34,789 nt of DNA from Geminocystis sp. M7585_C2015_104. GTDB taxonomy: Bacteria; Cyanobacteriota; Cyanobacteriia; Cyanobacteriales; Cyanobacteriaceae. The position numbers and the translations under genes are program-made. Shown one piece after another: positions 16,257 to 20,036 of the stretch. The stretch is taken from NCBI GenBank assembly GCA_015295805.1, contig DVEF01000005.1:1-34789 (forward strand), given 5' to 3'. The notes below the pieces were generated by a model. That model ran no database searches, was not told the DNA's origin, and saw nothing but the letters and a program-made list of their open reading frames with translations. Position 1 is the stretch's first letter. The number at the start of each line of letters is the position of its first letter.

Positions 16257-17501
16257 TTATTCTGGTTTTGCGGGTATTTCTAGACAGAATTGACTTCCAT
16301 CTAACTGCTGATTGTCTAACCATCTATAGGGGCTTTTAATGGCTATTTTGATCTTCAGTTTTTCCGCCAAATCTCTAACTATTGCTAGCCCTAGGCCACT
16401 TCCCTTTGTTTTCTCCTTTACCTGGCTGCCTCTATAGTTCCTCTCAAAGATGTAGGGCTGATCTTCCGGTTTAATTCCGCAACCGGTGTCGCTAATTTTT
16501 AACAATACTTTCCCTTCCCCCCCCCTCGAAAGTTGCAATTTTACCTTCCCATTTTCAGGGGTGTACTTCAGCGCATTGTCCATGAGATTATTGATGATTT
16601 CCCTTAAGGCTTTTTTGTTGCTTATAATCGGCTGTAAATCTTCCTCTATCTCAGTCAAGATCTCAATGTTCTTCTCCTGGGCAACAACCTTAAAACTAAT
16701 CAAAACCTCCTCCAGCAGCCTCTTCAAGTCTACCGGGGTAAACTCTTCTATTTTCTCCGTCAAAAAAAAGCTAACATGCTGGGGGTATATTGCTAAATCT
16801 GAAGTTTCCTTTTCCAGTTTAAACTGCTCACTAAAATCGGCAATTAATTCTCGCATCCTCTCACTTTCCCTCAAAATAACCTCGCCCGCTTTGTAGTTAC
16901 CGTCACCGGGGCTGAGTTTCTTCAGAAGAAGCTTTGCCAGAGTTATAATAGCAGTTAGTGGGTTGCGTAATTGATGCAAAAAATCATCCAACAATTGATG
17001 TTCTTCCCCTCTTAACTGTTGCAATTTTACCAGTTTTTCTGCAGTCAACTTCTGCTTCTTCTCCAGGAAACAGGCGACGGCAATTGTTTGTGTTATCTCT
17101 CTGATTTGTATAATTTCTGAGGCTTGCCAAGGCTTGTCTTCCCTGCTAATAACCAGTAAACCAAAAACCAACCCCTGGTAAATCAGAGGGAGAATTAACT
17201 GATGTGGCAACTGGGGATTGGCAGTATTATGAACAATAGTACTGACGTTATTATCACTGGCCAAAACACTACCCCATTTTTTTTCCACAAAGGGAGGTAA
17301 CAGGGGCAATTCTGGTTGGGAATTTTGCTGGGGATATGTTATAATGGGCACTAGGGTTGGCCCGTCTGCGCCCTGAGTCAAATACACGGTACTGACTTGT
17401 GCGGAGAATTGACTAAATAACAGTTTTAATTGGGATTCACACAGCAAAAGAAAATCACCGCTAACGCCGACAACCTCATAATTCACCATGACTCTTGGCA
17501 C
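16257..17501 (-). CDS. GAF-domain sensor histidine kinase (possibly Hik2/CSK-like)
   Basis: A soluble 414-residue kinase with no membrane segment. An N-terminal GAF-like domain spans about 15-150. The dimerisation/phosphoacceptor domain has H176 in LHQLRNPLTAI. The ATP-binding domain has the N-box (IINNLMDNALKYTPE), G1 (DTGCGIKPED) and G2 (GSGLGLAIV). The layout and the N-terminal FLLLCESQLKLL block, with one Cys at position 21, recall cyanobacterial Hik2 and the chloroplast sensor kinase, where an N-terminal Cys takes part in an Fe-S redox sensor. That match is from memory and unverified. M5 is an alternative start. No response regulator gene is adjacent. Confidence 0.85.
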   Translation of the reverse strand: MPRVMVNYEVVGVSGDFLLLCESQLKLLFSQFSAQVSTVYLTQGADGPTLVPIITYPQQNSQPELPLLPPFVEKKWGSVLASDNNVSTIVHNTANPQLPHQLILPLIYQGLVFGLLVISREDKPWQASEIIQIREITQTIAVACFLEKKQKLTAEKLVKLQQLRGEEHQLLDDFLHQLRNPLTAIITLAKLLLKKLSPGDGNYKAGEVILRESERMRELIADFSEQFKLEKETSDLAIYPQHVSFFLTEKIEEFTPVDLKRLLEEVLISFKVVAQEKNIEILTEIEEDLQPIISNKKALREIINNLMDNALKYTPENGKVKLQLSRGGEGKVLLKISDTGCGIKPEDQPYIFERNYRGSQVKEKTKGSGLGLAIVRDLAEKLKIKIAIKSPYRWLDNQQLDGSQFCLEIPAKPE

Positions 17502-17534: not shown

Positions 17535-19133
17535 TCAGGGTTGAGGGCTAATGCCAATGCCAACTGCTTGCCAGGCAATAGCATAGGCTTGTGAGGGTTG
17601 GTTGACTCTTTTAGTATATCTAACTCTGATTTTATACCTGCCAGTCACAGGCAGCTGACAAAAAATATGTTCTACACTATCCACTTTACTTACAGAAGAA
17701 CAAATTGTGGCCTTTTCCGTCTTGTTGTCAATTTTTAGTAACTCCAAATCCAAGTCGTTTAACCCCCTATCTATAAATCTCTCCCCCTGTTCATATTTTC
17801 CACTACCGTTGATATCTTCCAGTTCAACAAGACGATTCCAGGCTATAGTTATACTGATGAAACTCCCCCCTTTCAATGTATCAGAGAAATAGTAGTCATG
17901 AAAGTTGTTTTCCTCAATGGAATCATAGTTCCAACCAATTGGAGGTATTTTAACCCTGTGGCTATATTTTCCAGCTATCAATTGTTTATAGGCGCGCATG
18001 GTGTTTAAATGGCCGGTGCCCATCTCCATATCGAGGGGTATTTTCGGGTCTAAATAAGCGTCACTCTCCAGCCAAGTTTTGTTTCTCTGGGTTAAAACAG
18101 TGCGTGTCATTCCCAGCAAATTGCCGTCACCTTTATCCGCCAATTTGTCAGCAGAATTAAGCAGAATCGCTTTCATAACCTCCGGCTGGCGATAGTCAAG
18201 GGAAGGCAAAACACCCCGACGCCAAAGTCTATCCCCCGCCTCCTGCAAGAGGGCAACTGAACCAGTAATATGGGGAGCTGCAAAACTACTACCAGAAACG
18301 GTCTCCAACCTCCCTTCCAGATTGTACACCCGAAGGCGATGTCCCGGAGCCAAAATACTAACTGCACGTCTGCTACCTACATTGATTTCCCCAGGGATTA
18401 AGGCTTTGGCAATACTGGCTGGGGAGATACTTAAATTGGCAAAGTCGACTTTCCTAAACACCCCATCCTGTTTACGACTATAAGCAGTGGTGATGCCATT
18501 GTAATTGTCAGTAGGAATGGGAATACCCCCCAAACCCTGATTGCCTGCCACCACATATAAAACACTATGTTGTCTGGCAGACCAGTCTAGACACTGAGTG
18601 AACAAAGCGTTACCATCTAATTGGGGGTTTTTCCTCTCATCCCTGGCTAAAGACTCCCCAAAACTGATATTAATCGCCCTAACATTACCACCATCCTGCA
18701 ATGCTATATTTTGAATGGCAAGGCACTCCTGTTGTTGTTGAGCATATTTTAAAGTCCCAATAGCCCCCACATACAGTCTAGCATTAGGGGCAACTCCAGT
18801 AAATCTCTTGTGTCTGCCTACCATCACCCCTGCCACCATCATTGCATGATTGTCAATGTTGCTATTGGCGATGGCAGGGGCATCAAGGTAAAATAAACGG
18901 GCAAGGGGAATTGGACGATGGGTGGGGGGTAGTTTGTCTAAACCGAATTTTTTGGGTCTACCTATCTCCACCTGCCCTATACTAATCTTATGGCCCGTCA
19001 AATTGTAAGGGGGTTGGTGTAACCGTATCACGTCTATCCCCCTCTCCGACAGGGAATCCTCCAGGCTGTTAGCGGCAACAGGCAGAGAAAAAATGGCAAG
19101 GGTGGTTGTAAGGAAAACAAGGGAGTCTCTCAT
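17535..19133 (-). CDS. secreted S8 (subtilisin-like) family peptidase with altered triad
   Basis: A 532-residue predicted exported protein. Residues 1-22 look like a signal peptide (LVFLTTTLAIFSLPVAA). The S8 core follows: H96 (NIDNHAMMVAGV) at the His position, N198 (VVAGNQG) for the oxyanion hole, and S283 (GSSFAAPHI) as nucleophile. At the position of the catalytic Asp (normally D-T-G or D-S-G) the sequence reads GQVEIGRP, so E56 replaces Asp; D66 is a nearby alternative. The C-terminal about 130 residues look like a beta-rich domain (GGSFISITIAWN; GRYKIRVRYTK). It starts three bases after the HMA-domain gene and is probably translated with it. Periplasmic or extracellular activity is inferred; substrate unknown. 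Confidence 0.85.
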   Translation of the reverse strand: MRDSLVFLTTTLAIFSLPVAANSLEDSLSERGIDVIRLHQPPYNLTGHKISIGQVEIGRPKKFGLDKLPPTHRPIPLARLFYLDAPAIANSNIDNHAMMVAGVMVGRHKRFTGVAPNARLYVGAIGTLKYAQQQQECLAIQNIALQDGGNVRAINISFGESLARDERKNPQLDGNALFTQCLDWSARQHSVLYVVAGNQGLGGIPIPTDNYNGITTAYSRKQDGVFRKVDFANLSISPASIAKALIPGEINVGSRRAVSILAPGHRLRVYNLEGRLETVSGSSFAAPHITGSVALLQEAGDRLWRRGVLPSLDYRQPEVMKAILLNSADKLADKGDGNLLGMTRTVLTQRNKTWLESDAYLDPKIPLDMEMGTGHLNTMRAYKQLIAGKYSHRVKIPPIGWNYDSIEENNFHDYYFSDTLKGGSFISITIAWNRLVELEDINGSGKYEQGERFIDRGLNDLDLELLKIDNKTEKATICSSVSKVDSVEHIFCQLPVTGRYKIRVRYTKRVNQPSQAYAIAWQAVGIGISPQP

Positions 19134-19136
19134 CCA

Positions 19137-19340
19137 CTAATCCACCACATCATGGCCGGCATCCATGATTGCTTGTTTTATTCTATCTAAACTCACCGCC
19201 GTTGTCACCTCTATCACCTTCCTCTCCACATCCCCCCTTACCTCCGCCTTAGCATCCAACGCCTGGATTGCCCTTGTAATCGCTGCTATACAAGAGTTAC
19301 AGGAAATACTAGGCACTCTGATTGTAACAGTAAAATGCAT
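19137..19340 (-). CDS. heavy-metal-associated (HMA) domain protein, copper-chaperone-like
   Basis: A 67-residue single HMA domain with the beta-alpha-beta-beta-alpha-beta layout. The metal-binding pair is C14 and C17 (SISCNSC). Copper chaperones of the Atx1/CopZ type usually have MxCxxC; here the Met position is Ser, so metal preference is uncertain. The C-terminus IKQAIMDAGHDVVD is typical. It lies between cysE (15 bp upstream) and the S8 peptidase (3 bp downstream), all on one strand, which looks like a translationally linked operon. Metal delivery or metal sensing linked to the neighbours is possible but not shown. Confidence 0.88.
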   Translation of the reverse strand: MHFTVTIRVPSISCNSCIAAITRAIQALDAKAEVRGDVERKVIEVTTAVSLDRIKQAIMDAGHDVVD

Positions 19341-19355: not shown

Positions 19356-20036
19356 CTACTCCTCTGTGGCGTTTGTAGTTGTTAGCATCTTATTGGCTGC
19401 CAATTGTTGTTTCAACTCACCAACTTGTCTCTCTAACTGTTCTATTCTATCCAACAACGTCCTAATTATCTTAGCCTCGGAGTCCGGCAAATTACTGTGA
19501 TCCAGTGGATCTATTCTAACACCGGAACGATATACTATTCTCCCGGGAATCCCCACTACTGTACAATTGGAGGGAACATCCTTCAACACCACTGAACCAG
19601 CACCAATACGCACATCATCCCCTATTGTAATATTTCCCAGTACCTTTGCCCCCGCACCCACCACCACATTTTCCCCCAGAGTTGGATGGCGTTTCCCTTT
19701 CTCCTTCCCCGTCCCACCCAACGTGACTCCCTGATATATTAAACAATAATCCCCCACCACTGCCGTCTCACCTATCACTACCCCCATGCCATGGTCAATA
19801 AACACCCCCTTGCCTATTTTAGCACCCGGGTGGATCTCAATACCGGTAAGAAAACGGGCAAAATGGGAAATCAACCGGGGAATTACCGGCAAACCAAGAT
19901 TATATAACCAATGGGCAATGCGGTGAAAGATGAGGGCCTGTAAACCTGGATAGCACAACAAGACTTCTAACCAGTTACGGGCGGCCGGATCTCTTTCAAA
20001 TATAATCTTAAAATCGGCGATGATGTGTGAAAGCAC
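19356..20036 (-). CDS. cysE: serine O-acetyltransferase
   Basis: Makes O-acetylserine from serine and acetyl-CoA, the first step of cysteine synthesis. It has 226 residues, the short type found in cyanobacteria and many Gram-positives (E. coli has 273). The N-terminus has [23 protein letters not shown], then RIAHWLY, and a left-handed beta-helix of hexapeptide repeats from about residue 70 to 165, with [11 protein letters not shown] and [16 protein letters not shown] as the active-site region. A short coiled coil ends the protein ([19 protein letters not shown]). The start is GTG, and the family N-terminus fits it. It is the first gene of the cysE-HMA-S8 set and divergent from the VirB10-like gene. 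Confidence 0.95.

Follow-up and report, generated by a model that had tools for sequence, protein, structure and literature searches.

Subtilisin-type enzymes normally use an aspartate as their catalytic acid. We analysed a stretch of 34,789 nucleotides from Geminocystis sp. M7585_C2015_104 (contig DVEF01000005.1), hereafter called the window, in which an open reading frame encodes a subtilisin-like protein with a glutamate where this aspartate is expected. This raises the question whether the protein is a working variant of the catalytic triad, a zymogen-like form or an inactive relative, three options that a first-pass annotation of the DNA had left side by side. Among these the working triad is the best fit, with activity as its prediction. 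The gene probably encodes an exported, active subtilase of KP-43 architecture, in which Glu56, His96 and Ser283 would form the catalytic relay and Asn198 would lie in the oxyanion hole. This reading builds on four observations, i.e. the fold, the alignment of the four active-site positions, their conservation and the gene linkage in relatives, from which we infer activity and export. In the proposed mechanism Glu56 would orient and polarise His96 through a hydrogen bond, the role played by Asp32 in subtilisin. Ser283 would be activated by His96, and the acyl-enzyme would then be formed and hydrolysed as usual.

Gene layout and neighbourhood

The reading frame lies on the minus strand, which the first-pass annotation had left unstated, and the residue numbers given there for E56 (in KISIGQVEIGRP), D66, H96, N198 and S283 hold (Table 1). 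The N-terminal sequence suggests that the protease is likely exported. The zymogen-like form found no support, as the likely signal peptide and the first strand of the fold are only about 29 residues apart.

A subtilisin alpha/beta fold is indicated by the Pfam profile PF00082 (residues 89-341, E value 2.4e-20, 73.5 bits) and by structural comparison with VIA-align, in which the best 50 matches listed were all subtilases with Z above 30. The match to PF00082 sets in at position 49 of the 288-position profile. Similarly, in the Pfam search the matches at family places in related genomes begin at profile positions 44-52, compared with 1-6 for most other rows. Because the match begins after the Asp strand, it is a subtilase call in which the acid is not covered. 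For NCBIfam, no model scored above its cut-off with the window protease. The C-terminal beta-rich domain noticed earlier reappeared in the predicted structure, as a series of strands.

On the minus strand the gene order is cysE, HMA, protease and histidine kinase, separated by gaps of 15, 3 and 33 bases. Of 20 contexts compared, four have a cysE gene, all of them from the window's family, and three have the kinase. Three further genomes of this family share with the window the HMA reading frame near cysE and the protease. In other contexts the protease often has a ribulose-phosphate epimerase gene as its neighbour (9/20, with one member named by Pfam). The neighbour genes of the protease point to no function.

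Table 1. Features of the protease locus, with positions counted from the first letter of the window
Feature	Position	Strand	Basis
Subtilisin-fold protease, predicted to be secreted, 532 aa, E56/H96/N198/S283	17535..19133	-	ORF with ATG start; PF00082 E 2.4e-20; model pLDDT 89.3; KP-43 match Z 34.6
Likely Sec signal peptide, about residues 1-21	19071..19133	-	Sequence reading alone: hydrophobic stretch to PVAA; model helix 3-14
E56 codon (GAG), catalytic Asp position	18966..18968	-	Glu in 88/88; MAFFT against 14/14 canonical subtilases; ends strand 51-56
H96 codon, predicted catalytic His	18846..18848	-	88/88; residue 2 of helix 95-105
N198 codon, predicted oxyanion-hole Asn	18540..18542	-	87/88
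S283 codon, predicted nucleophile Ser in GSSFAAP	18285..18287	-	86/86 rows with a letter
C-terminal beta-rich domain, about residues 399-523, KP-43-like	17565..17939	-	Model strands 399 to 522; structural match to residue 523; PPC Pfam match weak, below cut-off
GAF/HisKA/HATPase histidine kinase, 33 bases downstream of the protease	16257..17501	-	Pfam
67-aa HMA (heavy-metal-associated) ORF	19137..19340	-	PF00403 1.1e-07; stops 3 bases before the protease ATG
cysE, serine acetyltransferase-like, upstream	19356..20036	-	Hexapeptide repeats, weak SATase_N

Position of the catalytic acid

We pooled the catalytic domains of the Glu-type family with those of canonical cyanobacterial subtilases and aligned them with MAFFT. 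All four modes placed E56 on the catalytic Asp of 14/14 canonical sequences and G58 on the Gly of the D-x-G motif. A profile-profile alignment of the family against canonical subtilases was local and stopped short of the Asp strand. In the AlphaFold model of the window protease, built on a 64-row alignment, the strand 51-56 ends at E56 and H96 comes second in the next helix. The same arrangement was seen in a control model of a canonical paralogue from the same genome (L125), where the strand 154-159 ends at D159 and the helix 192-201 starts at H192. The control model is weak overall (pLDDT 68.6), with block means of 96 (residues 151-160) and 91 (residues 191-200) in the regions used. The MAFFT alignment and both models thus back the earlier proposal that E56 occupies the catalytic Asp position. 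By alignment and model, E56 holds the register of the catalytic aspartate, and a Glu-His hydrogen bond would be expected from this placement.

The first-pass annotation had also asked for a family alignment of E56 against D66. Both residues are conserved in 88/88 sequences, and it is E56, not D66, that falls on the catalytic Asp. An active enzyme could nevertheless pair His96 with D66 or D94 as the acid and use E56 structurally, e.g. in a salt bridge to R59. The strict conservation of D66, an acidic residue at D94 in 87/88 sequences, an Arg at R59 in 88/88 and the lower model confidence at residues 61-80 (pLDDT 78-79) would fit such an arrangement. However, D66 is in the loop that follows strand 1, ten residues beyond it, its column is a gap in 9/14 canonical subtilases, and E56 stands in the register of the catalytic Asp. 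We therefore regard a D66 or D94 partner as improbable.

The glutamate might also be an artefact of a misread strand or of a gene-model or sequencing error, with an ordinary Asp elsewhere. Misalignment did make a plasmid subtilase seem Glu-type. Against an artefact here, an identical Glu was found in 88/88 sequences, and the printed alignment from residue 30 to H96 contained no conserved D-x-G strand, with D84 being Asp in 16/37 sequences only. The chance of such an error is therefore very small, and we return to E56 as the candidate acid.

Conservation of the active site

The conservation alignment comprised 88 sequences, which are a part of the family, with pairwise identities of 31 to 96% (median 53%). 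Two repeats (L001, L031), the sequences of two genomes in which the E56 region is missing (G161, G306) and the second pieces of three split genes (L056_1, L059_1, L065_1) were left out. Two of the aligned sequences are cut short and S283 was therefore counted over 86.

Instead of the aspartate on strand 1 that is a hallmark of S8 enzymes (D-[ST]-G), all 88 sequences carry Glu. Of the 22 glutamates of the window protease, E56 alone is unchanged in all rows. It is encoded by GAA (67) or GAG (21) and never by an Asp codon, the third base never being T or C. As this base is free to vary, the absence of Asp looks like selection for Glu and not for any acid. The second S8 hallmark, a catalytic His opening the next helix, is present in all 88 sequences. 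Besides, the nucleophile motif G-[TS]-S-x-A-x-P was kept together with the oxyanion Asn (G281 in 86/88, P287 in 87/88), and the lone exception at N198 is an Asp. N155 (87/88) and S157 (88/88) correspond by motif to Asn123 and Ser125 of the subtilase core described in PMC11593635. Other invariant acids of the family are D183 and D209 (88/88), in addition to D66. Near the Glu strand, Q54 is likewise invariant (88/88), as are R59 and D66.

The family has lost the usual D-[ST]-G and H-G-T-H motifs, whose places are taken mostly by E-[IVL]-G and H-[AS], with Ala (80/88) or Ser (8/88) and not Gly following the catalytic His. As the surroundings of both the acid and the His have changed as well, the active site appears to have been rebuilt, which is more than a simple swap. 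The changed contexts could also belong to a pseudo-protease, in which the subtilisin fold was retained for a binding or chaperone role and the Glu is a sign of lost catalysis. There is a precedent, as the Csp proteins of spore germination include inactive members with a subtilase fold; an NCBIfam model of this kind scored far below its cut-off here. On the other hand, a diverse set of 88 sequences retains His, Ser and, apart from a single Asn-to-Asp change, the oxyanion Asn. Many relatives also have a serpin gene linked to the protease, as described below. The inactive relative is therefore disfavoured, and we consider a pseudo-protease unlikely.

Distribution and origin of the family

Of 388 Cyanobacteriia genomes sampled, a protein search matched the Glu-type family in 242, in most cases at a single place per genome. 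In a set of 30 genomes that were inspected again, several places in one genome proved to be fragments of one gene, except for one genome (G088) with a second gene. This paralogue (L089:1422-3803, minus strand, 794 aa) was found in that one genome and retains the Glu, His and Ser. It has AAD for AGN at the oxyanion site, thus accounting for the exception at N198, and an RTX-type C-terminus. No second copy of it was found among 38 genomes of its order. A Nostoc plasmid sequence (L147) was dropped as a second Glu-type subtilase since it was misaligned and carries an ordinary VAVLDG motif further along.

On viral contigs no relative of the family was found, and four plasmid records gave partial matches to the protease (26-28%). 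A scan with the protein encoded by the neighbouring cysE gene gave no match. Scanning genome contigs with patterns from one sequence yielded eight loci, all titled cyanobacterial. Four genomes of one family in the same order (f7; G123, G277, G339 and G369) had no match to the Glu-type family, and G123 has 10 PF00082 matches.

A tree was built from 69 catalytic domains. One branch (SH-aLRT 100, length 2.42) separated the 25 sequences of the family from 44 other subtilases. This was a quick tree without bootstrap, and the 44 are non-family rows, several of them without a letter at the Asp column. Overall, the Glu-type site is a real and old departure from the subtilase norm, which most likely works as a Ser-His-Glu triad.

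Linkage to serpin genes

Serpins of the inhibitory kind trap active serine or cysteine proteases only. A serpin linkage therefore favours an active protease. First hints came from two context loci (L152, L166) in which a gene of the serpin cluster lies downstream of the protease. We then compared the 91 genomes for which the places of both protease and serpin had been entered. In 30 of them the serpin gene immediately follows the protease gene on the same strand, the two matches being 278 to 1911 bases apart, and in the other 61 it lies elsewhere or on a different contig. The 30 linked genomes span eight cyanobacterial families (f3, f4, f6, f10, f27, f30, f38, f39), and this linkage argues against a pseudo-protease. 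Linked serpin loci include L188 and L191-L212, and the arrangement is a candidate bacterial protease-serpin module.

A class-wide search detected serpins in 143 of the 388 genomes. Counted by eye, they occur in 122/242 genomes with the protease and in 21/146 without it, which is weak by itself because many small genomes lack both genes. The hinge was GTEA, the inhibitory type, in 19 of 20 adjacent serpins fetched and GTTA in one. As 17 of 20 non-adjacent serpins also had GTEA, the hinge is no marker of a dedicated partner. Reading by eye, many serpins have a hydrophobic N-terminus and some a lipoprotein-like Cys. The genome of the window gave no serpin match at 1e-10, and the same holds for four relatives from its genus and family (G360, G300, G323, G351). 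Therefore, the linkage argument concerns the family and not the window copy. A gene annotated as Serpin B showed the strongest up-regulation at low salinity in Nodularia spumigena (PMC5853447).

In many cyanobacteria the adjoining exported serpin would probably act as a suicide brake on the protease. Taken further, the Glu-type protease may have arisen a single time and persisted over much of the history of cyanobacteria, secreted and mostly encoded by one gene copy per genome. In many lineages it may form a bacterial protease-serpin control module with a serpin of its own encoded next to it. We put this wider scenario forward tentatively, as a serious possibility that falls somewhat short of an even chance. 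A survey of the open-licence literature at the level of titles and abstracts found neither a Glu-type subtilase nor a cyanobacterial protease-serpin gene pair, and the serpin gene adjoining the Glu-type protease is a new observation of the present analysis. If the proposed reading is true, a natural Glu variant of such age would show that the catalytic acid is exchangeable with His and Ser unchanged, and it would offer a clean system for measuring the effect of Asp versus Glu. Moreover, activity could be tested directly through the linked serpin, which is also one of the rare candidates for a bacterial serpin whose partner is known.

Comparison with known systems

Ser-His-Glu hydrolases of the acetylcholinesterase type use the same three residue types as the proposed relay, but their alpha/beta-hydrolase fold is unrelated and the sequence order is different. 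A further comparison is L125, the canonical subtilase with a DUF5942 domain from the window's own genome, which has the same catalytic positions in the same order. It differs in its VAVIDTG and GHGTHVAG motifs and falls on a different branch of the tree.

For subtilisin-like proteins, a structural survey of 2024 named two triads (PMC11593635). In its description, S53 enzymes have a base Glu, an acid Asp at base+4 (E78 and D82 in kumamolisin) and an oxyanion Asp. The first-pass annotation had pointed to these sedolisins, and S53 chemistry, with the Glu as part of a Ser-Glu-Asp machinery, might be considered for the window protease as well. Both share a subtilisin-like fold, and kumamolisin has a glutamate, E32, on the strand matching that of E56, where it is bonded to the catalytic Asp82 (PMC11593635). 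However, the survey's account of the S53 segments describes the first one, including the dipeptide on the E56 strand, which is the Asp strand of subtilases, as having no catalytically important residue (PMC11593635). Kumamolisin E32 and E56 are thus alike in position and not in chemistry. The sedolisin comparison fails because the S53 Glu stands for the His, whereas the window protease keeps His at the base (H96, 88/88), Val at base+4 (V100, 88/88) and Asn at the oxyanion site (N198, 87/88). These residues speak against S53 chemistry, to which we give very little chance. Among the best 50 Foldseek or VIA-align matches listed there was no S53 chain, an absence that alone proves nothing.

The nearest known systems are KP-43 and SubHal, and KP-43 (1wmd) ranked first in both Foldseek and VIA-align. 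With VIA-align, KP-43 matched at Z 34.6 (rmsd 3.1, 390 aligned residues, model residues 24-523 against 1-434) and SubHal (5fax) at Z 34.5 (rmsd 3.0, 388 aligned, model residues 24-523). As the KP-43 match extends to residue 523, it accounts for the C-terminal beta domain. Both enzymes share with the window protease a subtilisin domain followed by a C-terminal beta domain, which is the KP-43-type architecture. Identity over the aligned residues is 18 and 19%, and the comparison was made at the level of the fold. Unlike KP-43 and SubHal, the window protease has Glu for the catalytic Asp and, in its family, Ala or Ser after the catalytic His.
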